NCBI GenBank assembly: GCA_022865965.1
Contig: JALHTS010000004.1
Coordinates: forward strand, 1 to 10,262
Source: Ignavibacteriaceae bacterium
GTDB lineage: Bacteria > Bacteroidota > Ignavibacteria > Ignavibacteriales > Ignavibacteriaceae
Length of the DNA stretch: 10,262 nt
Reading direction: 5' to 3'
Below are positions 733 to 10,262 of this stretch, piece after piece. Below the pieces are notes generated by a model. The model was given only the letters and a program-made list of their open reading frames with translations, was not told the origin of the DNA and did not search any database. Position numbers and translations under genes: made by a program. Position 1 is the stretch's first letter, and the number at the start of each line of letters is the position of its first letter.

Positions 733-1368
733 TTATTTTTTAACTGCGAAAGCTATCACAGCTATATGCGGTCCATATTTTCCCGCAATCTCAGTTGTAG
801 TTATTTCCTTTATATCGAAGTGCGCATTTAATAATTGTTCAATTTCTTTTTCAGATGAGAAATAAAGTGTTGTATCCATAGGTGTCTTTCGATATTTGCC
901 AACTCCTCCAAAATCCGGGTCTTCTTCACTGAAGCAAACTGTAAAGTAGTGTACACCTTTTTGAAGAAGTTTAATTACGTTTCGTATGTATGTGTCACGA
1001 GCTTCCGGGAAAATGTGGTGAAGCACTTCCCAATCGTAGGCAAATTCGTACTGGGTATCTTCTATAAAATCCGAATCAGTTAAATCACCCACCTTGAATA
1101 TGCATTCTACATTCTCTTGCTCCGCTTGTTTTCGGGCCAGGTTTACCGCACTTTCTGAAAGATCAATTCCAGTAACCTGGAATCCCCTCTTCGCTAACCA
1201 TATTGCGTAGTTGCCAGCACCACAACCAAGATCTACCGCACGACACGGAGAAACTTTTCCGCTCTCAACGAGTTCGACGAGTTGCTTTGGCGGCTCTTTA
1301 AGGTCCCATGGTATTTTGTCTGCAGGAGCACTGCCATAGATTTGCTCCATTTTGTCTTTAAGATTCAT
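733..1368 (-). CDS. Class I SAM-dependent methyltransferase
   Basis: This 211-residue cytosolic protein has a Rossmann-type methyltransferase fold. Motif I is VDLGCGAGN (45-53). The acidic end of strand 2 is GIDLS (D69), which would bind the SAM ribose. GDLTD (94-98) follows, and YDWEVLHHI (111-119) is in the motif IV region. The C-terminal part has the FDIKEITTTEI and HIAVIAFAVKK strands usual for small-molecule methyltransferases of the TehB/thiopurine-methyltransferase-like group. The substrate cannot be read from the sequence. I start at ATG 1368 (MNLKDKMEQIYG); an in-frame TTG at 1386 would add six residues but has no ribosome binding site. It is the last complete gene of the same-strand series, 104 bp or more after the transglutaminase-like gene, with a hairpin in the gap. 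Confidence 0.85.
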   Translation of the reverse strand: MNLKDKMEQIYGSAPADKIPWDLKEPPKQLVELVESGKVSPCRAVDLGCGAGNYAIWLAKRGFQVTGIDLSESAVNLARKQAEQENVECIFKVGDLTDSDFIEDTQYEFAYDWEVLHHIFPEARDTYIRNVIKLLQKGVHYFTVCFSEEDPDFGGVGKYRKTPMDTTLYFSSEKEIEQLLNAHFDIKEITTTEIAGKYGPHIAVIAFAVKK

Positions 1369-1396
1369 TTTTATATTTTTTCCCAAATACGTTACC

Positions 1397-1438
1397 GCTA
1401 AACAGCCTGCCCCGATCTATCGAGGGTCGCTGTTGAGT
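1397..1438. repeat. Hairpin between genes, attC-like or terminator-like
   Basis: AACAGC (1401-1406) pairs with GCTGTT (1429-1434), CCC with GGG and CGAT (1413-1416) with ATCG (1419-1422), leaving a two-base loop, one bulged base and a small internal loop. In gene orientation the flanks read ACTCAAC (fits RYYYAAC) and GTTTAGC (one base off GTTRRRY), the box pattern of integron attC sites. At 42 bp it is shorter than known attC sites. It lies 52 bp past the stop of the transglutaminase-like gene and has no U-tract for an intrinsic terminator. A similar hairpin occurs at 7224-7253. Confidence 0.4.
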
Positions 1439-1490
1439 AGTTGTTCAGTCTACATTATTTAGATCCTCAGATTAACTAACCTATTCTATC

Positions 1491-3827
1491 CTATTTGAAG
1501 TTCCAAACTAAGTTACTGTTGTATTCTTCCCAATCGCCAGACCTTAACACATTTTTATCTTCAAAAATGATATATGAAGCAGCTGGATCATATGGAGATA
1601 AATTACTCATTTTTAAGGTAGCATCGTTGCTAAGACCTGCAAGAAGTATAATCCAACCATTTGGATTAATAGTGCTCTCTGTAATTAAAACAATCCCTTG
1701 TGAAGGTTTATTATAGGTAATACCTTGGTATAAGAACTTATCTTTATCGAATAGAATCGGGAATGCATTTTTTAGTTGCTGGGTGATTTTATTTGTCTTC
1801 GGACGACCAATAAGTACAACAAAATGTTTATTCAAATCCTCCTTTGTAACACTAGTATCTGCCTTTATGAATTCCCGTCCTAAACCTAACCACTTATCAT
1901 CGAATAATATAGCAGCGGTTTTGTTGTCTTCACCTTCGCTCGATGTACCATAAACTATAATCCCATCCGGATAAAAATCCCAAAATGTCCGGATACGAGC
2001 CGGCATCCATCGTATAGTTGGAATGTGAAAATCGGGATCTACTATTAGTTTTTTAGGATTATTCGTTGTATAAAACTCAAAATTAGTTTTTTTCGAGTTC
2101 AACCAGATTTCCTTGCTTTCCTGACCCTTCTCTGTTTCAAGGACCAGTTCAACAGGAACTTGATAAGTTGTTTCTCCTTTCTGCAGAAGACTTCCGTACA
2201 CCTTCCATTGATTTAATACCTTTTCTATCAGAATATTATCCAGCTTAAATTGTGATAATGCAATATTACCTACCCATTGTTTAAAGAAGAAATCGAGTGA
2301 AGTTCCATGCATACGTTCGGCAATATCTTGAAATTTTTCTATTGAAACAGATTTACCGGAAGTAAGCCGGAGATCTAAATAGCTTCGGAAAATCTTAAGA
2401 AATTTTTCATCTCCTATAATTTGACGAAGCAAATGGCACAGGTATGCTTCACGATTTTCATTAAGCCTGGGATTTATTTCAAATAATTCACCGTTATTTA
2501 TATCTCCTCTTTTTGCATTATAGAATGAAAGCAGAACTTTTTGTCGCCAATTTCTTAGCTTCTCTTCTTCTTCATTTTCCGGATAGAGTTGAGCAGCATA
2601 TTCAGCATAGCTGTCAGCTGGAAATGGATCGGAATTGTGGAGAACTTTTGCTTTTGCTATACGGATTTTGGTAATGTTCCATACACCCCACCCTATTATA
2701 GCTGCTCTTCCTTTATAAAGAGGTATCCACTGGTCGCCATAGCCTTCACTTTCCTCCTGTGGTGCATATGGACCTATCTTTACATCAAAACCCTTAGATA
2801 AAATTATTTTTTTATTGCCTTGATAACCGAATTTTCCCCATGTCGGATCTACGGGTATCCATCCGTATTCTGGAAGGTAAAACTCGGCCCAAACATGACC
2901 TGCTATAGGTCCATAGAGTCTTGTCGCTGCCAATCCATCTGATGTTAATTTAGTATGTTCATTAGAGCGAAGTTTTAAGTCCTTTTCCTTGATCGAGGGA
3001 TCCCAGCCAGCCATACCGGTTACTCCTCTTGCCGGAATACCTACTGCACGGCACAGTCCAATAAAAAAAGTACCGTAATGGTCACATTGGCCCTCATAAT
3101 ATTGTTCTCCTGTTATGGGATCACAGACAGGAAAATCCAAAATAGATTCGATACCAGTACCTCTTTCACGCCTAACTGTTTTAAAGCGAATTCTATTTCT
3201 TACAAATTCAAAAATCCTTTTCGCTTGCAGATAAACATTCTTTTCATCGCCAACAGCTGTTTGTGCGAGCTCTTTTAACTCTGGAGTAATATTTATTTTA
3301 TTTGTACTCCTTGTGTAAAGCTGATAATTCTCACTGTTCTTATCATATGAGCCTATCTGCTCAGGATCAATTATGCAATGGACTTCAAAAATTTCCAAAC
3401 GGTATTTAATTTTTACTTCATAGAATTCTTTTACCGATACTTTCCCAAAATCCCAAAAGAGTATCTGATTGCCATGTTCTGGATCTTCATAAGTATAATG
3501 TGGTACAGGTTCGATGGCAAGGATCTTTACCGCCTTCTGTGAATCCCACTCACGGGGAACCGGAATCCATACTTTAAGATCTTTGCCCTTGTCAATCTTT
3601 GCATGATCGGGAACTAACTCGAAGGTATAGTCAACGGTCATCACTTGCGGGTTTCTGTAAATTACTTTAGACGTCAGTGATTTATTTAAACTAGAATCGA
3701 AAGAAAACCTGGCTTCTTGTGAAAATGAATTTAATGGATAAAAAATAAATATTGTAATAAAAACGAGTTTAGTTGCATATCGAACTCGCCTCACCTCAGT
3801 CATCAAATCAAGAATTATTTCAATCAT
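1491..3827 (-). CDS. Exported transglutaminase-like protein with M1-peptidase-like C-terminal region
   Basis: The 778-residue protein has an N-terminal signal peptide: a basic stretch at 11-20, a hydrophobic core at 21-32, and a likely end near SFSQ (34-37). A beta-rich region (60-150) precedes a transglutaminase-like domain with Cys248 in YEGQCDHYGTFF, His311 in AGHVWAEFYLP and Asp327 in GWIPVDPTWG, so the Cys-His-Asp triad is complete. Residues 435-605 resemble the region after the catalytic domain of M1 aminopeptidases (YLCHLLRQIIGDEKF, then HGTSLDFFFKQWVG, then a beta-sandwich), but there is no HExxH zinc site. A further C-terminal domain (about 620-775) has VVLIGRP and a GWIILLAG strand, possibly like a domain seen at the end of some secreted peptidases. 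The start at 3827 is supported by an SD (AGAGGT, 3833-3838); ATG 3803 is an alternative. A proteolytic or cross-linking role at the cell surface is inference. Confidence 0.8.
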   Translation of the reverse strand: MIEIILDLMTEVRRVRYATKLVFITIFIFYPLNSFSQEARFSFDSSLNKSLTSKVIYRNPQVMTVDYTFELVPDHAKIDKGKDLKVWIPVPREWDSQKAVKILAIEPVPHYTYEDPEHGNQILFWDFGKVSVKEFYEVKIKYRLEIFEVHCIIDPEQIGSYDKNSENYQLYTRSTNKINITPELKELAQTAVGDEKNVYLQAKRIFEFVRNRIRFKTVRRERGTGIESILDFPVCDPITGEQYYEGQCDHYGTFFIGLCRAVGIPARGVTGMAGWDPSIKEKDLKLRSNEHTKLTSDGLAATRLYGPIAGHVWAEFYLPEYGWIPVDPTWGKFGYQGNKKIILSKGFDVKIGPYAPQEESEGYGDQWIPLYKGRAAIIGWGVWNITKIRIAKAKVLHNSDPFPADSYAEYAAQLYPENEEEEKLRNWRQKVLLSFYNAKRGDINNGELFEINPRLNENREAYLCHLLRQIIGDEKFLKIFRSYLDLRLTSGKSVSIEKFQDIAERMHGTSLDFFFKQWVGNIALSQFKLDNILIEKVLNQWKVYGSLLQKGETTYQVPVELVLETEKGQESKEIWLNSKKTNFEFYTTNNPKKLIVDPDFHIPTIRWMPARIRTFWDFYPDGIIVYGTSSEGEDNKTAAILFDDKWLGLGREFIKADTSVTKEDLNKHFVVLIGRPKTNKITQQLKNAFPILFDKDKFLYQGITYNKPSQGIVLITESTINPNGWIILLAGLSNDATLKMSNLSPYDPAASYIIFEDKNVLRSGDWEEYNSNLVWNFK

Positions 3828-3871
3828 TATTGACCTCTATGATTTCATTAAAAATAAAAACAGATCGTCTA

Positions 3872-3899
3872 ATTATAAAGACCGTTCATATTTTTGATC
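3872..3899 (-). promoter_or_regulatory. Possible promoter for the transglutaminase-like gene
   Basis: In gene orientation a TATAAT lies at 3877-3872, 45 bp before the ATG at 3827. A poor -35 candidate (TGATCA) sits about 17 bp further upstream. The 143-bp gap between the esterase stop and this gene carries none of the intergenic repeats, so a private promoter here is plausible, but the match is only to the -10 hexamer. Confidence 0.25.
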
Positions 3900-3970
3900 A
3901 GGTTTACATTTTATTCCCATTCTTATCGTATGTTTTGTTTTTGACAACTGCATCCAGTTTGATTAAATAC

Positions 3971-4864
3971 CTAAAAACTATTTACCTTTAACCAATTAAT
4001 AAACAACTGCACCCACTGGTCAGTACCATCTTCTTTACGGCCCATTCCAAATCCATGTCCGCCTCTGGGAAACAGATGCATTTCAACAGGTACTCTATGC
4101 TCAAATAGTTTTTGTGAATATAGTGTTGTCTCTTTCACTTTACAAACATTATCATTATAGGCATGGATTAAAAATGCCGGGGGTGTATCATCAGTCACCA
4201 GGTTAATTAATTCGTTTTTAGCTATTTCTTCTTCGGTCATTTTTCTTAAGTATAAGTCGTCTTCCAGCCATTTTAAATTAACCGAGTCGATAGTAGTTAC
4301 GCCATAAATCAGGGCAGTAAAGTCAGGGTTTTCTTCTCCGTTTTCACTCCTCCATAAACCTACTACAGTGGCGAGATGACTCCCGGCTGAAAAACCCATT
4401 ACTCCAACCTGGTCATTTTGAACACCATACTTCTCAGCATTCTCTCTGAGTAATTTAAGAGACTTTCTTGCATCGGTTAGAGGCACTAATTCCGGTTTGT
4501 CGGATGATTCAGCGTTAGGAAGCCTGTATTTTAGAACAGCCGCTGTAATTCCATATTTTGCCAGTACTTTAGCCAGATCGTGTCCTTCATGATAAATTGC
4601 CACCGCCGAATAACCGCCCCCTGGTATAATAACTACAGCTTTGCCACTGTTAATTCCTTCCGCTTTGTAAACAGTAAGTGTCGGTTCTGTAACGTCAAAC
4701 GCGCAAATCTCACCCCACGACTCTTTTTCATATTCCTTCAAGTTGTTCTCTTTATAAAAAGGTTTTTGTTCTCCGTCCCAAAGTTTATACTGGTCCTGAG
4801 CTTTAGTCTCAGCTATAATGAGCAATAAAAAACAGAATATGAAAAATGTTTTAGCTGCGTTCAT
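3971..4864 (-). CDS. Exported alpha/beta hydrolase, acetyl-xylan-esterase-like (BD-FAE type)
   Basis: The 297-residue protein starts with a signal peptide (MNAAKTFFIFCFLLLIIAE, likely cut after KAQ at 21-23), so it acts in the periplasm or outside. The oxyanion-hole motif PGGGY (81-85) is followed by the nucleophile elbow GFSAG with Ser159, a probable catalytic Asp238 in AYNDNV, and His270 in RGGHGFGMG, so the triad is complete. Order and spacing fit the esterase/lipase group that includes acetyl-xylan and feruloyl esterases. The real ester is not readable from sequence. AAGGAT lies just before the ATG at 4864. The next gene in transcription order, the transglutaminase-like one, is 143 bp away with no repeat between, so the two could travel together. 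A repeat unit lies 41 bp upstream of the start. Confidence 0.85.
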   Translation of the reverse strand: MNAAKTFFIFCFLLLIIAETKAQDQYKLWDGEQKPFYKENNLKEYEKESWGEICAFDVTEPTLTVYKAEGINSGKAVVIIPGGGYSAVAIYHEGHDLAKVLAKYGITAAVLKYRLPNAESSDKPELVPLTDARKSLKLLRENAEKYGVQNDQVGVMGFSAGSHLATVVGLWRSENGEENPDFTALIYGVTTIDSVNLKWLEDDLYLRKMTEEEIAKNELINLVTDDTPPAFLIHAYNDNVCKVKETTLYSQKLFEHRVPVEMHLFPRGGHGFGMGRKEDGTDQWVQLFINWLKVNSF

Positions 4865-4905
4865 AGAAATCCTTATTACTAATTAGAATTTTTTTTATCT
4901 ATGAG

Positions 4906-5043
4906 TATAATGGCATGTGATCCCGTGATATCGAGATAACACAACCTTTGATTGAGTTCTCAATTATTTACTTGTCCGCCTCAGCCAAATTTATCATCCT
5001 ATGGCGGAGTCTAAAAAATCTGGCGGATTAAAGATGTTATGTG
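4906..5043. repeat. Dispersed palindromic repeat unit, attC-like
   Basis: The inner palindrome has ends ACACAAC (4939-4945) and GTTATGT (5036-5042), complementary with one G-T pair, giving a 104-bp site. The core shares TTGATTGAGTTCTCA and ATTTACTTGTCCGCCTCAGCC-like blocks with the units at 8702 and 6354. The outer left end (TATAATGGCATG, 4906-4917) aligns with CCTAACGGCGTG of the unit at 8702, with a small hairpin between (near TCCCGTGATATCGAGA). In gene orientation the R''-like end CACATAAC follows the stop of the 5099-6256 gene by 56 bp. The order of boxes is that of an integron attC site; that assignment is inference. Confidence 0.6.
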
Positions 5044-5098
5044 CTACACTTATCCAACCTATTTCAATAATAGAGTTTTGATTAACTGTTTCAAACCG

Positions 5099-6256
5099 TC
5101 AGTTCTTCCCTGTATCGATGGGTGCGTGGGGATATAATGACTGGCGCTTCTGAAACGATATAATGGCAGGTTTTTGAATCACGCCGGCATCAATATTCAC
5201 AGCCTGTCGAATGGTCTCATTTTGCTGCCAGTTCTCATACCCTGCCACCACAGTCGGTAAATGGACAATGAGAGCAGCAGAGATAGAGCGCGAGGCACTT
5301 TCCCAAAGATAGCTTGGTGAATGATCCACGGCGTAGTAATCTACCATTCCAATTTTAAACATAGGATTTTTAAATGTGGTTGGTTTGGCAAAAAAGAATC
5401 CCATACCCTCATCACAACTTACGTCAATAATAAGGCAGCCTGGCTTGAGATAAGATATTTCATCTTCTGTAACGAAAAGAATAGGATGATCTGGTTCTTG
5501 CAGGGTTCCGTTCACGATGATCTCTGATTGTTTGATCAGATCAATTAATGGTTGCTCAGTCCCATCGTGCTCTACTACCAACATGCGCGCTTCACCTTCA
5601 TTGCCTTCCCGAATACGGACATATTCACAATCAAGTACTTCCTCACGCACTTCGTGGTCGGGACGTTGAATGCAAATTGTAATATCTCTAAAGCCACGTG
5701 CTTTAAGGGCGTATATTGCTCCTCGGCTGACCGCACCAAAACTAAAAATGATCACTTTGCGCTGGTTACCATAATGCCCGTCGATTCCTTTAAGTTGCAG
5801 TGCATGTAAAACCGCACAGTAACCCGCCATTTCGTTGTTTTTATAAAAAGTGTGGCGCCCAATCTCTCCGTTGGGTCCCCAAACAAACATATCTTCAAAG
5901 GCAATGAGCGTCTGCTTGCGATCGATCGCAGCTTGAGTATGAGCCCGCTGCTGCACGCAATGCAGATAACCCCAAAGGATTCCACCCTCACGCAGTTCCT
6001 CAAAATCCGCTAATGTTGGTTTGGCAAGAATGACATTCCCAATGTTGGCTAATAGTTCGTGTCGTGTGGCAACGCCACCCGTCTTGTCAGCAATTTCCGA
6101 GTCGGCGATACCGAACGGCGCTCCATAGCCTTCCTCAAATATCAGTTGGCGACGAATTTGTTCGGGAAGCCGTGGCAGATGCTCCGGATGGATTGGAATA
6201 CGTTGCTCATCCTCTTTTTTTGAAGTACCAATGACTCCAAATGTTAATTTACTCAT
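5099..6256 (-). CDS. Alanine dehydrogenase/PNT-family oxidoreductase, N5-(carboxyethyl)ornithine-synthase-like
   Basis: This 385-residue cytosolic NAD(P)-dependent enzyme has two domains. The N-terminal AlaDH/PNT domain (about 5-135) has the pattern E-x-R-(I/V)-P (17-21), EEGYGAPFGI (41-50), a Lys in LAKP (80) and GYLH with His99, which correspond to substrate-binding and catalytic positions in the family. The NAD domain has FSFGAVSRGAI (171-181). VDYYAVDHSPSYLWESAS (305-322) is typical of the saccharopine-dehydrogenase/CEO-synthase branch rather than true alanine dehydrogenase, as is the REGGILWGYLH segment. N5-(carboxyethyl)ornithine synthase reductively condenses pyruvate with ornithine; saccharopine-type chemistry is the alternative. 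AAGGA precedes the ATG. By eye the gene is richer in G+C than its neighbours, which fits separate acquisition. Repeat units flank it on both sides. Confidence 0.8.
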   Translation of the reverse strand: MSKLTFGVIGTSKKEDEQRIPIHPEHLPRLPEQIRRQLIFEEGYGAPFGIADSEIADKTGGVATRHELLANIGNVILAKPTLADFEELREGGILWGYLHCVQQRAHTQAAIDRKQTLIAFEDMFVWGPNGEIGRHTFYKNNEMAGYCAVLHALQLKGIDGHYGNQRKVIIFSFGAVSRGAIYALKARGFRDITICIQRPDHEVREEVLDCEYVRIREGNEGEARMLVVEHDGTEQPLIDLIKQSEIIVNGTLQEPDHPILFVTEDEISYLKPGCLIIDVSCDEGMGFFFAKPTTFKNPMFKIGMVDYYAVDHSPSYLWESASRSISAALIVHLPTVVAGYENWQQNETIRQAVNIDAGVIQKPAIISFQKRQSLYPHAPIDTGKN

Positions 6257-6353
6257 ATCGTTTCCTTTTTTTAAGACAATTAAGGTTTATGGCTTCATGA
6301 ATGCATTATTAAAAGTTTAAATGTACTCATTTTTTATCCTTCTTTTTTATGCG

Positions 6354-6514
6354 CTATAACGGCGTAGTTTTTAAGTTGCAACCCATCCTTTAGCTAACGG
6401 ACAACAATGCCAATTAACCACAATTAACTTTTATTTACTTGTCCGCCTCAGCCAAATTTATCCGTCTATGGCAGAGGCTGATAATATTTTCAGATTAAAA
6501 AGTTTACGTTGTGT
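6354..6514. repeat. Dispersed palindromic repeat unit, attC-like
   Basis: The left end CTATAAC-GGCG (6354-6364) matches the ATAACGGCG ends of the units at 10178 and 8702. Then comes CCTTTAGCTAACGG (6387-6400), a decayed copy of a perfect palindrome in the unit at 7003. The inner palindrome runs from CCACAAT (6418-6424) to GTTGTGT (6508-6514), with the conserved ATTTACTTGTCCGCC block and a central stem TCAGCC (6448-6453)/GGCTGA (6476-6481). In gene orientation ACACAAC lies 15 bp after the lipoprotein stop, where an attC R'' box would sit. The left inner box is degenerate (5 of 7 bases complementary), so the exact crossover end is uncertain. Confidence 0.6.
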
Positions 6515-6529
6515 TTTATTTATATGCTA

Positions 6530-6976
6530 CTAAGGTTTAATAACATACTCACTATACTCAATTAGAGAATCATAATTACAGTAAAACAAATATTGATCTT
6601 CCGGTAAACCAAATAATTCTAAATGTATTACATAACTGCATATGCAACGGCAAAGATGTGCAGCAGTATCTGTTACCGTAACAAACAACGTGTCTGAATT
6701 TATTGTGTAGTTCGTAACAAATCTGTTTGAGTCCGGACAACAATTTCCTACAACGCAAAAGTCGATTTTTAGTGTGTCTTTAAAACTATACGTAAAGCAA
6801 TAGTCATCAAGCAAAGCTTTTTCTAAAGAGGAAGAAGAACTACACCCGGGAATTTGATATGAAACAAATTCAATTTCTTCGGTAGTTTCAATTGGACCAT
6901 CTCCTGAACAAGAGAAATGATGAATTAGTGCAAACAAAAGGAATAAGCTTAAACTTATTTCTATAAATTTTTTCAT
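6530..6976 (-). CDS. Cys-rich lipoprotein of unknown function
   Basis: The 148-residue protein opens with a lipoprotein signal peptide: MKKFIEISLSLFLLFALIHH, then FSC with the lipidated Cys at 23, followed by SGDG, a flexible tether. The mature part has nine further cysteines at 45, 60, 74, 79, 80, 109, 111, 113 and 133, including the pairs NCCPDSN and LCRCIC. Such a density in an exported protein suggests disulfides or metal binding. I do not recognise a named family. The SD AGAGGT before ATG 6976 fixes the start. The gene is alone between two repeat-bearing gaps, as a single-gene cassette would be. Confidence 0.8.
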   Translation of the reverse strand: MKKFIEISLSLFLLFALIHHFSCSGDGPIETTEEIEFVSYQIPGCSSSSSLEKALLDDYCFTYSFKDTLKIDFCVVGNCCPDSNRFVTNYTINSDTLFVTVTDTAAHLCRCICSYVIHLELFGLPEDQYLFYCNYDSLIEYSEYVIKP

Positions 6977-7002
6977 AGCTTACCTCTATATTTATGCTTT
7001 GT

Positions 7003-7090
7003 AAAATAACGGTGCTATTATTAAGTTTTCGCCCATCCGTTAGCTAACGGAAAGTAATTCCGCTTAACAGCACAACAACTTTTTATTTAC
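7003..7090. repeat. Half repeat unit, right arm replaced
   Basis: AAAATAACGGTGC (7003-7015) aligns with the ATAACGGCG ends of the other units. A perfect 14-bp palindrome CCGTTAGCTAACGG (7037-7050) follows, and the half ends with CACAACAACTTTTTATTTAC (7071-7090), the same block that precedes CTTGTCC in the other units. Beyond 7090 the conserved TTGTCCGCCTCAGCC core and its partner arm are absent. Unrelated sequence and a separate palindrome (7110-7203) follow instead. This looks like a decayed or interrupted copy. Confidence 0.6.
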
Positions 7091-7109
7091 AAACGAAACC
7101 AATAATTTC

Positions 7110-7203
7110 AGAGGGTTAGATATTAAATAAATTATTTCCTCAATCTTTAATTACTTTCTCAATTAATATTACAAATACATTAAGTATTTCTATCTAACCC
7201 TCT
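7110..7203. repeat. 94-bp palindrome with 13-bp perfect terminal inverted repeats
   Basis: AGAGGGTTAGATA (7110-7122) is an exact inverted copy of TATCTAACCCTCT (7191-7203). Inner arms pair imperfectly, and TTAATT (7147-7152) pairs with AATTAA (7161-7166) around the same centre (7156.5), so nearly the whole element can form one long AT-rich hairpin with an eight-base loop. It has no coding capacity. No flanking target duplication is evident. It could be a MITE-like remnant or a long stem of another sort, and it sits where the right arm of the half repeat unit should be. Confidence 0.65.
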
Positions 7204-7223
7204 AAACGTATGCCGCACTGAAA

Positions 7224-7281
7224 AACAGTTTACCACGACTTGTCGAGGCTGTCCGTGTTTTGGCAAAGATTAGACACAGCC
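7224..7281. repeat. Nested hairpins downstream of the PH-like gene
   Basis: ACAG (7225-7228) pairs with CTGT (7249-7252), CC with GG, and CGAC (7236-7239) with GTCG (7242-7245) around a two-base loop, with a four-base bulge on one side. The layout resembles the hairpin at 1401-1434. A competing stem pairs GGCTGT (7247-7252) with ACAGCC (7276-7281), within 10 bp of the stop of the 7290-7655 gene. There is no U-tract after either stem, so a rho-independent terminator is not clearly supported. A decayed attC is possible. Confidence 0.35.
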
Positions 7282-7289
7282 GCTCAAAC

Positions 7290-7655
7290 TTAACTATCTG
7301 GCTGATTCTCTTTGTATCGAGTTAGCGCCTCCTCTAAAGCTCGCTTAAAAGCTGCAGGATCATCCGGTGTAAAGAGCACCCGCCGGATATGTCCTTCGCT
7401 TTTGTCAAGAACGACGTGTTCTAAAAAGTTGGCCCAATCCAGCTTCAAGGCAGGCCGAAAGTTCTTCAGGTGCAGGTCTCCTTTTAGGAGTCCCTTTACT
7501 TCGGATTCGGAAATGTTGATTCGCTCGATGTGGTCAAAAGGAATTGTCATTTGGCCTAAGTGCGTGTCGAACTCCACGCGATTGTTGTAAATGCGGTACT
7601 CTTGCCAGAGGCTCTTAACAGTGCACACGGAAGTATAGACTGCTTTTTCATTCAT
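7290..7655 (-). CDS. Small protein with PH-like fold, function unknown
   Basis: This 121-residue soluble protein has no signal peptide or membrane segment. The pattern of short beta strands (QEYRIYNNRVEF 18-29, GQMTIPFDHIERI 34-46), then PALKLDW (68-74), a strand with HVVLDK (80-85) and a terminal helix after FTPDDPAAFKRAL (95-107), resembles bacterial PH-like domain proteins. This is family-level recognition only; no ligand or partner can be inferred. AAGGTG lies nine bases before ATG 7655. Base composition is visibly higher in G+C than the genes on either side. An attC-like site lies 58 bp upstream of the start, and hairpins and repeats fill the 313 bp downstream. Confidence 0.65.
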   Translation of the reverse strand: MNEKAVYTSVCTVKSLWQEYRIYNNRVEFDTHLGQMTIPFDHIERINISESEVKGLLKGDLHLKNFRPALKLDWANFLEHVVLDKSEGHIRRVLFTPDDPAAFKRALEEALTRYKENQPDS

Positions 7656-7712
7656 TTGGTTTACACCTTTCCAGACGCCCCGCTACATTTACTGAGCGTC
7701 TATCATAATTAT

Positions 7713-7769
7713 GCCTAACTTAGTTTACCCCAATTTTTCGGGGGCGACTGTTTGATTGGCGGGTTATGT
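7713..7769. repeat. Compact attC-like recombination site
   Basis: The 57-bp site reads, in gene orientation, ACATAAC (R''-like) at 7769-7763 through to GTTAGGC at 7719-7713, which fits the R' consensus GTTRRRY exactly. Inside, AGT (7722-7724) pairs with ACT (7747-7749) and CCCC (7728-7731) with GGGG (7740-7743 or shifted by one) around an eight-base loop, with unequal unpaired bases between, like the unpaired spacer and extrahelical bases of attC hairpins. R'' begins seven bases after the stop of the 7777-8223 gene, as in integron cassettes. Function as a recombination site is inference. Confidence 0.6.
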
Positions 7770-7776
7770 TTACTAT

Positions 7777-8223
7777 TTATTCCTTTTTTGTAAAAACTAC
7801 TTCTAATATTATTTCGTAATCATTTTTATTTGACGGATACCTCATCTCAAGAAGTATATTCCCATTCTCTATTCGGCTAAATGTTTGAACCAGTAAGCTA
7901 TTATGCCAATTTAAACAAAGCGTGTTTTCATTTATAAAATTACAGGTTGCTTTCATAAATTCGCCGGAATCTTCGAACCACCAATATCTATAAATTTGAC
8001 TTTTTTCATCCCAAGCAAATATAGCGTACGCAGCTCCTTCACTATTTGATAGTTTTGCACTATAATCAAAAGTAACATATTGATTATTTAGAATCCGCTT
8101 AAATTCACCTTCGCCTTCTCCAATATCTACATCACTAAAATGGCTCTTTGGTACTTTATAATGCAATTTCCAAGTACCAAGTAGAAAATTAAACTTATCC
8201 ATTGGATTTAATTCTTCACTCAT
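7777..8223 (-). CDS. DUF1579-like protein of unknown function
   Basis: The 148-residue protein has no signal peptide. It starts with MSEELNPMDKFNFLLGTWKLHYKV; the F-x-x-LLGTW opening followed by many short strands (FAWDEKSQIYRYWWFEDSGE, 69-88; NILLEMRYP, 122-130) is typical of DUF1579-like or calycin-type beta-barrel proteins, which are often found as lone cargo genes. No active site can be named. I start at ATG 8223, which has GGAA just before it; an ATG at 8232 and a TTG at 8235 are in frame but have no ribosome binding site. It lies close after the 4-TM gene (37-50 bp) and may be co-transcribed with it. Confidence 0.7.
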   Translation of the reverse strand: MSEELNPMDKFNFLLGTWKLHYKVPKSHFSDVDIGEGEGEFKRILNNQYVTFDYSAKLSNSEGAAYAIFAWDEKSQIYRYWWFEDSGEFMKATCNFINENTLCLNWHNSLLVQTFSRIENGNILLEMRYPSNKNDYEIILEVVFTKKE

Positions 8224-8272
8224 AATTTCCATCAATTTATTGTAAATTTATACTCTTACGCCATGCTACTGT

Positions 8273-8665
8273 TTACGATTCTATCTCTCTTGGTCCTCCA
8301 AAGAGTAAGTATCCGTATGCCACTGACAATCCTATGTGAATTACATATATTGAAGCAAACATGAGATTAAACGAAATTCCATACAGAAGATTCAATGACA
8401 CTTTATACAAAATCAATAAAATGTAGAGAGTAAATAAAGAAAGAACTATTGCTCGTCTAGCCTCAGATTTTGAGGCGTCTCTTGCGAAAAATGTAAGGAC
8501 GCCAGTGCCAATGACAAATACACCCATGCCCTGAGCAATCAGAGAGGAGTCACCAGCTACATTAAATCCCATCAACGAACTGCATAATGTCGGGAAAAAA
8601 GTAAACCCAGCTCCAAAAAGAAATGCAATAATGTAGTTTACAGTGAAGATTGTCTTTAGTTTCAT
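8273..8665 (-). CDS. Small integral membrane protein, four predicted TM helices
   Basis: The 130-residue protein has hydrophobic segments at about 6-28, 42-60, 70-90 and 99-122. The second and third are joined by ARDASKSEARRAI (61-73), a basic cytosolic loop, and the protein ends in a short tail, GGPREIES. I recognise the general type (4-TM proteins beginning MKLKTI...N with a 'FFAR-A-S-ARRAIVL' loop) but not a function. AGGAGGGTG stands just before ATG 8665, the strongest ribosome binding site in the window. Repeat unit 8702-8851 lies upstream and the DUF1579-like gene follows closely, so the pair may form one two-gene cassette. Confidence 0.75.
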   Translation of the reverse strand: MKLKTIFTVNYIIAFLFGAGFTFFPTLCSSLMGFNVAGDSSLIAQGMGVFVIGTGVLTFFARDASKSEARRAIVLSLFTLYILLILYKVSLNLLYGISFNLMFASIYVIHIGLSVAYGYLLFGGPREIES

Positions 8666-8701
8666 TTCAACACCCTCCTAGATAAATATTACTATTAGGA
8701 T

Positions 8702-8851
8702 CCCTAACGGCGTGTTATCCCGATAAATCGGGAAAACATAACCGTTGATTGAGTTCTCATTTACTTACTTGTCCGTCTCAGCCTAATTTATCCGACTATG
8801 GCGGAGGCTGATAAATTTGCGAAACTTTTTACTTATTAAAGATGTTATGTG
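8702..8851. repeat. Dispersed palindromic repeat unit, attC-like
   Basis: The inner palindrome has perfect 7-bp inverted ends, ACATAAC (8736-8742) and GTTATGT (8844-8850), 115 bp in all. A central stem pairs TCAGCCT (8778-8784) with AGGCTGA (8805-8811). The outer left part has CCCTAACGGCG (8702-8712) and an exact small palindrome TCCCGATAAATCGGGA (8718-8733). In gene orientation the R''-like box starts one base after the TAA of the S41-like gene. Which GTTA box is the crossover point (8742 or 8708) cannot be settled by eye; both copies recur in other units. Confidence 0.65.
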
Positions 8852-10153
8852 TTATTTCAGTTTGTTTAAGAGTAACTCAAGTATGGGATCATGATGTCTA
8901 AAATATTCATGGGAATACAATTTCACGAGTATTTCCGGTTCAATATAGTTCCGTTCATCCCATGGCCAACTGTTTTGCCAATAATATCTTGAAACAAGTA
9001 ATTCAATTTTGCTATTTGGTAATGTAAAACGATTAGGATCTGCATAGTGATTTGGGGCGGATGCCGTAGGCTCTCCGACAAATATAGCATTCGTATGTTT
9101 TTCTAACCACGTTGCACAATGCATCGCAGCAGACCATGTTTTCCTTCCAATGTTAATATAAAGGTTACCCTTTACGTTAATATCATCATGTCTTATTATA
9201 TCATGAACCAATGGTAAGACAATTTGATTATTGCCGCCGATGTTATTTCTTAAATCAATTATGAGACGCTTGACATTATTCCTATCGATAAACTCCCACA
9301 ACTTAGAATTAAATTCGGAATATTTTTCATTTTCAGAGTCAGCACAAATATTAAAACAAAAGTAAACAGTTTCTAATTCTTTTAGATATTCAAACCAGTA
9401 AAACTTGTCCATATTCCGATAAACCAAAGGCAATTTCTCTTTTTCGAGGTCTATAAATCTTACAGATTCTGTTGTAGGAACACTATTAAACATCCAATAC
9501 CACATTAAGTCGGAATCTGAGTCAAATCCAGTAGCTGGAATATTTAATTCTGATATTTTTCCTTCTTTCTCAATTATAAGATTAAGATATTTTGAATCAC
9601 CAATAATGTTTAGTCCATTTAAAACGGATTGCATTGTAAGATACATAGGAGCTGTATAACTCAAAGAATATTCATTATCATGTGGTGTAATTTTTTTAAT
9701 CCTTTCAAATGCTTCATCAACCGTATATTTTCCAATTTTAATAACTTTAGCGCCAATAGCGTTAATATAATCACGATGAATAGCAGTAATAAAATAACCA
9801 TCTTCAAATTCATATACTCTTATAGGAAACCATAATTTTGTTAGATTTTTCCCATGTAATCGAGTGTGCCCATCCTTGAGAAGTGAAGTGATTCGAATTA
9901 ATTCAACAATGACTTCGTTATCTTTTATTTTAGGTATTCTATCATAAAGTAGTTTTGCTGAATACATGAAAGTATCTTCTGATGAATTAAAAAAAGGATT
10001 AGGATGGGTAGTCTTAATTTTTTCAACTAAAAATTGCAAATCTTCACGCCACTGTTCATCGCTAAGGGATCTATTTTCAACCAAATTCTGAGATAAAGCA
10101 TGAGCATTTAACATGAAGTACATGACTGATACTATAAAAATCATATTTTTCAT
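8852..10153 (-). CDS. Exported S41-type (tail-specific/tricorn-like) peptidase homologue
   Basis: The 433-residue protein begins with a signal peptide (MKNMIFIVSVMYFMLNAHAL, likely end at ALSQ), so it is exported. DGHT (94-97) belongs to the N-terminal S41 helical region. The catalytic domain has LIIDLRNNIGG (297-307), GRKTWSAAMHCATWL with the probable nucleophile Ser341, and VGEPTASAPNHYAD with Glu361. The Lys of the CtpA Ser-Lys dyad is not seen after the Ser. The His/Ser/Glu set is closer to the tricorn branch, but activity is uncertain. I start at ATG 10153 rather than the in-frame TTG at 10168, because the ATG directly opens the signal peptide; no strong SD is visible. A repeat end (GTTATGTG in gene orientation) lies 25-30 bp upstream, and another repeat starts one base after the stop, so this is the clearest gene-plus-site unit in the window. 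Confidence 0.8.
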   Translation of the reverse strand: MKNMIFIVSVMYFMLNAHALSQNLVENRSLSDEQWREDLQFLVEKIKTTHPNPFFNSSEDTFMYSAKLLYDRIPKIKDNEVIVELIRITSLLKDGHTRLHGKNLTKLWFPIRVYEFEDGYFITAIHRDYINAIGAKVIKIGKYTVDEAFERIKKITPHDNEYSLSYTAPMYLTMQSVLNGLNIIGDSKYLNLIIEKEGKISELNIPATGFDSDSDLMWYWMFNSVPTTESVRFIDLEKEKLPLVYRNMDKFYWFEYLKELETVYFCFNICADSENEKYSEFNSKLWEFIDRNNVKRLIIDLRNNIGGNNQIVLPLVHDIIRHDDINVKGNLYINIGRKTWSAAMHCATWLEKHTNAIFVGEPTASAPNHYADPNRFTLPNSKIELLVSRYYWQNSWPWDERNYIEPEILVKLYSHEYFRHHDPILELLLNKLK

Positions 10154-10177
10154 AAGATTACTACTCAATTATTTTAA

Positions 10178-10262
10178 CACATAACGGCGTGGTTGCTAAG
10201 GCGCAGTCCATAACAACATTGCCCAATTTGTTTAACAACTTTTTATTTACTTGTCCTCCTCA
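10178..10262. repeat. Dispersed repeat unit, cut by window edge
   Basis: CACATAACGGCG (10178-10189) is the left end, and its CACATAAC is an exact inverted match to the GTTATGTG right ends of the units at 4906 and 8702. TTTAACAACTTTTTATTTAC and CTTGTCC (10231-10256) match the conserved core of the other units. The second arm lies beyond the window. The unit sits immediately upstream of the S41-like gene. Confidence 0.6.

Follow-up and report, generated by a model that had tools for sequence, protein, structure and literature searches.

A contig assigned to an Ignavibacteriaceae bacterium very probably carries a partly decayed integron cassette array

The stretch of DNA analyzed here, hereafter the window, is the whole of contig C717 (JALHTS010000004.1, 10,262 nt) in a genome bin of an Ignavibacteriaceae bacterium (GCA_022865965.1), and at least its part from 4.9 to 10.3 kb is very probably an integron cassette array, partly decayed, whose integrase lies off the contig. 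An earlier note on this DNA, written from the letters alone, had proposed a cassette array spanning 733 to 10262. That proposal is supported from 4.9 kb on, by the arms of recombination sites (attC), an 11-nt complementary pair, the integrases (IntI), attI and attC sites of relatives, and the cargo, but not in the segment 733-4864. All nine complete open reading frames (ORFs), together with a partial one (3-287), are on the minus strand in the ORF map, as the note had said of the complete genes. Read from the sequence, the units are co-oriented, each starting at an R' box (G|TTA) and continuing with a gene, an R'' box and a site.

A repeat search of the window recovered related copies in five gaps (10169-10262, 8666-8851, 6977-7289, 6257-6529 and 4865-5098), which agrees with the number given in the note. 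Sites follow genes 10, 8, 7, 6 and 5; none follows genes 9, 4 and 2, and the one after gene 3 is doubtful. The R''-like boxes that the note had placed after the stops at 8852, 7777, 6530 and 5099 are indeed present, but they do not fit RYYYAAC strictly, reading ACATAAC or ACACAAC. The order of gene then attC is seen at genes 10, 8, 7, 6 and 5, but two of the sites (B and G) are non-canonical and no whole canonical attC rises above shuffled sequence.

The sites, all on the minus strand, are built as follows. Site A (10182-10262), recognized by a right-arm profile, is a right attC half cut by the contig end; its R' GTTATGT runs downward from 10185 and opens the first cassette. Site B (8702-8854) belongs to a form that we call type ii, and consists of R'', ATCTTTAATAAGTAAAAAGT, a palindromic insert, a local hairpin and R' GTTAGGG at 8708. 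Site G (4905-5042) is of the same type, with R'' ACATAAC, ATCTTTAAT, the palindrome and a degenerate R' ATTATAC, and the two are 82% identical over 115 nt. Site D (7713-7769), recognized by a left-arm profile, has a canonical left arm (R'' ACATAAC, CC, GCCAATCAAACAGTCGCC), a strict R' GTTAGGC and a shortened right arm, in a gap (7656-7776) with R''- and R'-like boxes and no repeat copy. Site E (7001-7289, R' GTTATTT at 7010) appears to be an interrupted attC remnant, which has AACACGGACAGC and TTTTTCAGTGCGGCAT in common with a canonical attC of genome G009. It is interrupted by a 110-nt insert (7102-7211) resembling a miniature inverted-repeat transposable element (MITE), with inverted ends of 13 nt, AGAGGGTTAGATA, that bear strict GTTAGAT and ATCTAAC motifs mimicking R' and R''; no second copy of this insert was found among the loci compared. 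Site F (6354-6514), found by profile and by the repeats D1 and D4, is a hybrid of R'' ACACAAC, a palindromic insert and a canonical right arm, with R' GTTATAG at 6360. Several of the window's sites are decayed or interrupted. The palindrome, GTCCGCCTCAGCC...GGCTGAGGCGGAC, lies within sites at 6431-6490, 4964-5012 and 8761-8818 of the window, and at 4883-4939 of locus L037 and 4182-4232 of L038. Separately, a third right-end context, GTAAACTAA|GTTAGGC, was seen at three sites (L036 1840-1945, L036 3140-3250 and window 7713-7730).

Arm profiles were built from 35 canonical sites of other genomes, none from the bin itself, with 40 shuffles of the window as background. Since these training sites were picked by pairing score and spacer, their own pairing proves nothing. 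On the minus strand, the right-arm profile scored 45.7 at site A (position 10229) and 13.1 at site F (6404), the shuffle maximum being 7.8, and the left-arm profile scored 21.4 at site D (shuffle maximum 12.2). The best arm scores on the plus strand were -9.4 and 5.7. The attC profile match that the note had set as a test of the array is therefore found at A and F (right arm) and at D (left arm). Four contigs of the bin without a known array peaked at 8.3 for the right arm and 5.1 for the left. Elsewhere in the bin, a whole-site detector of canonical attC gave one clear site on C463, and the arm profiles gave both arms on C168. Among nine named IntI loci the profiles hit seven, with none in L209 and L210 (Stygiobacter electus).

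In an integron, the start of a cassette is complementary to the cassette's own R''. The first 11 nt of the gene 10 cassette, GTTATGTGTTA (10185-10175), are exactly reverse-complementary to its R'', TAACACATAAC (8854-8844). When the 170 AAC trinucleotides on the minus strand were tested, three reached 9 nt and the sole 11-nt pair was the box of site B; the predicted boxes account for two of the three pairs of at least 9 nt, that of B with 11 nt and that of D with 9 nt. Within site B, the sequence GTTATGTTT at 8742 forms a 9-nt pair with site D's R'', so the cassette of genes 9 and 8 may start there and not at 8708. Gap C between these two genes (8236-8272) is 37 nt long, too short for a site, so they either form one two-gene cassette or have lost a site. 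Other own-R'' pairs in the bin are found on C1 (10 and 9 nt), C463 (10 nt), C168 (10 and 10 nt) and C160 (11 nt).

IntI above the TIGR02249 cut-off is encoded by 26 of 59 genomes, the bin's own being one of the 59, and none of 14 controls has a match at E 1e-30; the 26 include G001, which alone in the sample shares the bin's genus. The best 80 matches of a scan of named genomes include Ignavibacteria and Ignavibacteriales metagenome-assembled genomes (MAGs), Stygiobacter electus (Melioribacteraceae, Ignavibacteriota), MAGs labelled Bacteroidetes, and others; contig C35 of G016 is identical to one carrying the label Bacteroidetes bacterium WY2.bin74. At 13 of 20 intI loci an attI box, TAATA|GTT followed by A or G, comes no more than 420 nt after the stop codon of intI and on the strand of that gene; two have the variant AAGTATAT|GTTA, and five have none within the stretch read. 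Downstream of intI and attI come co-oriented cassettes with canonical attC, made up of R'', two bases and GCNNNTcAANCCGaCCGC, a right end GCGGCNGGTTANNNGC-AACGCC-GTTA, and extrahelical bases. The 35 that were collected, all from other genomes, measure 144-266 nt.

The repeats go beyond chance, as searches of the bin and the arm profiles show. A query with gap F gave 19 matches in the bin (40 of 44 candidates were scored), with E < 1e-4 on four of the 741 contigs (C717, C1, C594 and C655), and further queries added C463, C168, C388, C413 and C62. Repeat searches, the one check made on the genome-wide scatter that the note had named as evidence against an array, give nine of 741 contigs. Four contigs, C655, C1, C594 and C463, were read gene by gene, and on these the site comes after the gene and in its orientation; on C655 a ParE/Phd toxin-antitoxin pair forms one unit. 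The same contig has two adjoining M28-like peptidase paralogues, one recognized by Pfam and the other by likeness. The palindromic insert occurs on C717, C1, C594 and partly on C655.

The cargo of the array varies between relatives for the two of the nine window genes, 5 and 3, whose conservation was checked. At E <= 1e-20, the alanine-dehydrogenase-like gene 5 is matched in two of the 59 genomes, the bin itself and G049 (69%), with a paralogue in the bin on C498 (50%). The transglutaminase-like gene 3 is also matched in two, the bin and G040 (27%, partial), and G001 matches neither gene. It is very improbable that the gaps hold ordinary intergenic palindromes of the repetitive extragenic palindrome (REP) or MITE-like kind, set between unrelated genes with no integron involved. 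The recurrence of the palindrome across gaps and the MITE-like insert in gap E are what that explanation would expect. However, the palindrome is an insert inside sites, the repeats on the array contigs read follow the gene in its orientation, own-R'' complementarity exceeds the control, canonical arms occur in the window and IntI and attI in relatives, and the two cargo genes are not conserved.

A number of observations weigh against an integron array. The window has neither intI nor attI, and a TIGR02249 search of the 741 contigs found no full intI above the cut-off, so that the IntI-type recombinase the note had suggested looking for did not turn up in the bin. With a contamination of 7.84% (3.03 Mb, completeness 95.9%), the host assignment of the contig depends on the binning. 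The right arm of site E scores 1.8, under the shuffle maximum, while C259, a contig of the bin without a known array, reaches 8.3, slightly over the window's shuffle maximum of 7.8. The whole-site detector gave two hits on the window, both inside the shuffle range. The R'' boxes of F and G pair over at most 6 and 7 nt, away from the expected R', and the own-R'' rule does not hold for genes 6 and 5. A blind scan for 10-nt inverted pairs returned one in the window and two in the reversed window; the weight of such pairs rests on their positions and not on their frequency. At 12 of 25 loci, one of them the window, the reversed sequence yielded no fewer blind k-mer pairs; pairs were therefore relied on just where the position of a site was known, or else under a permutation control. 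Finally, the left 4.8 kb of the window has no clear site. Gaps H (3828-3970) and J (288-732) showed none by box inspection and arm profiles, gap C has no room for one, and in gap I (1387-1490) inspection showed just a possible degenerate canonical attC (1387-1450, minus strand), with the R' core lost and not above chance. The segment 733-4864 is therefore not shown to be an array.

A candidate for the missing IntI lies near the end of contig C701 (L040 8243-8437). It is the C-terminal 66 aa of a tyrosine recombinase, 63% identical to the IntI of G054 and G017 over 62-63 aa and 52-56% identical to two Xer-like proteins of the bin; its sequence is ambiguous between IntI-like and Xer-like. Sites resembling attI with 0-1 mismatch were found on C463, C168, C62, C160 and C254, and no IntI match was obtained on those of these contigs that were searched. 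An R'' of at least 10 nt follows the sites on C463, C168 and C160, and one of at least 9 nt follows 26 of the 35 attI-like sites listed, intI-linked ones included; among the 26 are those on these three contigs and three distant places in the one-contig genome G002 (L187-L189). We relied on sites with 0-1 mismatch and a cassette following; the pattern at two mismatches was dropped, as the reversed control was nearly equal (5 versus 3 in the bin, 9 versus 6 in G002). Scraps of IntI at two of 27 loci, a 22-aa C terminus at L189 and a 33-aa N terminus at L200, point to loss of intI by deletion. Some attI sites have little sequence ahead of them (90 nt at L203), and intI may have been lost there as well. 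In addition, an inverted repeat of about 14 bp, GGAACGTAGATATGC..GCATATCTACGTTCC, with variants, precedes the attI box at L187, L188, L199-L201 and L043; it is present beside intI at L043 and also at attI-like sites that lack a full intI.

Under the array reading, an IntI of the relatives' kind would excise a cassette as a circle from the bottom strand, which folds so that R'' pairs with R', and would insert the circle at attI. A cassette would start with the complement of its own R'' because IntI acts on the paired R'' and R'. Some of the sites may be canonical long attC or remnants of these, and B and G belong to a second type, which seems to retain R''/R' pairing, with a fixed block in the place of L'' and often a hairpin beside R'. 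In this type ii site, R'' is directly followed by A or C and TCTTTAATAAGTAAAAAGTC, as seen at B and G and on C1, C463 and C168; in some sites the block is split after TTTAAT by the palindrome. A 25-mer that includes the TAAC of R'' was found, at up to two mismatches, in 40 of 146 genomes of the order, and the reversed control gave none. The exact block also occurs in one contig of a viral collection (L292 10509-10533). We found no description of it in the literature at the level of titles and abstracts, subscription papers and preprints aside.

The odds that IntI also uses type ii sites are about even or somewhat better. Among 77 such sites, 29 show complementarity of at least 9 nt between R'' and an upstream GTT start, compared with 2.6% for permuted R'', and the other 48 lack an upstream match of 9 nt. 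Pairing of L'' with L' in 18 type-ii-left sites has a median score of 5.1, the same as in permuted pairs (5.1); all 18 were kept, although three right ends are not of type ii: that of L098 (52 nt) is an inner GTT assigned in error, L162 lacks a type ii arm and the arm of L106 is canonical. The 5-mers before TAAC take 20 different forms in 28 selected cassettes, and the pairing follows them. R''/R' pairing is thus kept where L pairing is not. About half of the type ii right ends fold on themselves beside R', as in CGGCTGTTGTG-TTTTAA-CATAACATGCCG. A pairing of the left block with an inner TTATTAAAGAGG, noticed by eye in G002, was discarded since short type ii sites lack it.

Tentatively, at somewhat less than even confidence, we propose that type ii sites form a second class of IntI substrate. 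The R''/R' stem would be 9-13 nt long, a local hairpin by R' (ACGG-TGTT...AACA-CG-CCGT) would replace the L-box helix, and the fixed 20-nt block would lie by R''. The same tentative proposal implies that the junction, once folded, spans as much as about 440 nt, and present attC models would probably miss it. It is also possible, though on the doubtful side, that IntI does not use these sites at all: they would be attC in which a spreading non-coding element has deleted or overwritten L'', and the cassettes ending there would be frozen. The permuted level of L''/L' pairing, the 48 sites without an upstream match and the hybrids of a type ii left with a canonical right arm (L106/L185 and site F of the window) fit such freezing, and truncated attC, or attC split by an insertion sequence (IS) or intron, are on record for mobile integrons in the part of PMC12901181 available to us. 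Drift should, however, erase a pairing that instead follows R'' of so many sequences; the block's presence in 40 genomes also speaks against freezing, as do nearly identical copies, each about 430 nt long, within the array at the intI of G002. That genome has seven type ii copies at 3134229-3146973, near intI (3153556-3154491), several of them near-identical repeats of about 390-440 nt; type ii sites reach 438 nt.

A third explanation, which we consider unlikely, is that type ii cassettes are mobilized by some non-IntI tyrosine recombinase, which would act on duplex DNA at a site formed by R'' and the fixed block. The 20-nt block by the crossover does resemble a protein-binding site, and the bin has several other tyrosine recombinases; the search for recombinases beside type ii sites used IntI queries only. 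Against this stands that type ii cassettes start at attI and at canonical R', which in relatives are IntI junctions. Pairs of at least 9 nt at cassette junctions numbered 8 for attI to type ii, 14 for canonical to type ii, 2 for type ii to canonical and 8 for type ii to type ii (two of these eight having one end in common, in L170), alongside 24 for attI to canonical and 28 for canonical to canonical. The start classes were regular expressions drawn up after viewing the data, and 577 other/other pairs served as background.

The note's view that the genes are unrelated in function was confirmed by Pfam matches which, where there are any, are unrelated; in Pfam and NCBIfam, five of the nine genes have an assigned likeness, one a weak match and three no match. 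From the right end, and all on the minus strand, cassette gene 10 (8852-10168) encodes an S41 peptidase-like protein of 438 aa (PF03572, E 8.7e-8) with a signal peptide by eye. Cassette gene 9 (8273-8665, 130 aa, hydrophobic by eye), gene 8 (7777-8235, 152 aa) and cassette gene 6 (6530-6976, 148 aa, with an N terminus that looks lipoprotein-like) match no family, and cassette gene 7 (7290-7655, 121 aa) has the weak match, to a PH domain and under the cut-off. Cassette gene 5 (5099-6256, 385 aa) is alanine-dehydrogenase/transhydrogenase-like (PF01262, PF05222). To the left lie gene 4 (3971-4864), a hydrolase similar to BD-FAE/acetylxylan esterases, gene 3 (1491-3827, 778 aa), transglutaminase-like (PF01841), both with a signal peptide by eye, and gene 2 (733-1386), a SAM-dependent methyltransferase by Pfam/NCBIfam. 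A PADLOC scan of the nine genes gave methyltransferase-domain matches only, all on gene 2, and Rfam gave one chance match on the window and none to attC. By eye, TATTTTCCA(G/T)(A/T)ATAA can be made out in about six degenerate copies at 288-500, in the gap that precedes the partial gene; some of the copies correspond to repeats D6/D17.

These findings place in environmental bacteria, seemingly Ignavibacteria-related, a system for gene capture whose attC are long, whose intI is co-oriented and which includes attI sites without intI. They suggest that surveys built on one attC model may miss cassettes, and if type ii sites do recombine, attC could no longer be held strictly to require an L-box helix.

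Compared with known systems, the closest is a sedentary chromosomal integron or CALIN, that is, a cluster of attC lacking an integrase. The likeness lies in co-oriented gene-and-site units, complementarity of a cassette's own R'' and R', IntI and attI in relatives, accessory cargo and a toxin-antitoxin unit; the differences are that no integrase was found in the bin, the sites are partly non-canonical and the bin has attI-like sites without intI. Complete integrons in Chlorobi and Ignavibacteriae are already reported by IntegronFinder 2.0, as far as the accessible text goes (PMC9024848), so that the occurrence of integrons in this group is known. Canonical attC, with R''-L''..L'-R' and extrahelical bases, are matched in relatives and on C463. 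However, the size given in the available part of PMC12901181 is 57-141 bp, whereas canonical sites here measure 144-266 nt, and type ii sites are up to 438 nt long and without L''/L' pairing. The same partial source describes cassettes that are unusual because their attC is truncated, of the delta-attI kind or IS/intron-split, and that resemble ours in ending with R'' but no full attC; in contrast to these, type ii is one conserved block across genera and not recognizably attI. In Treponema integrons, according to the portion of PMC3607928 available to us, intI is transcribed toward attI and longer attC are mentioned. There, intI, attI and cassettes are co-oriented as in the relatives examined here, whereas the attI found here bear a conserved TATAAGTAATA-like box that is often preceded by a hairpin, and the lineage is another.

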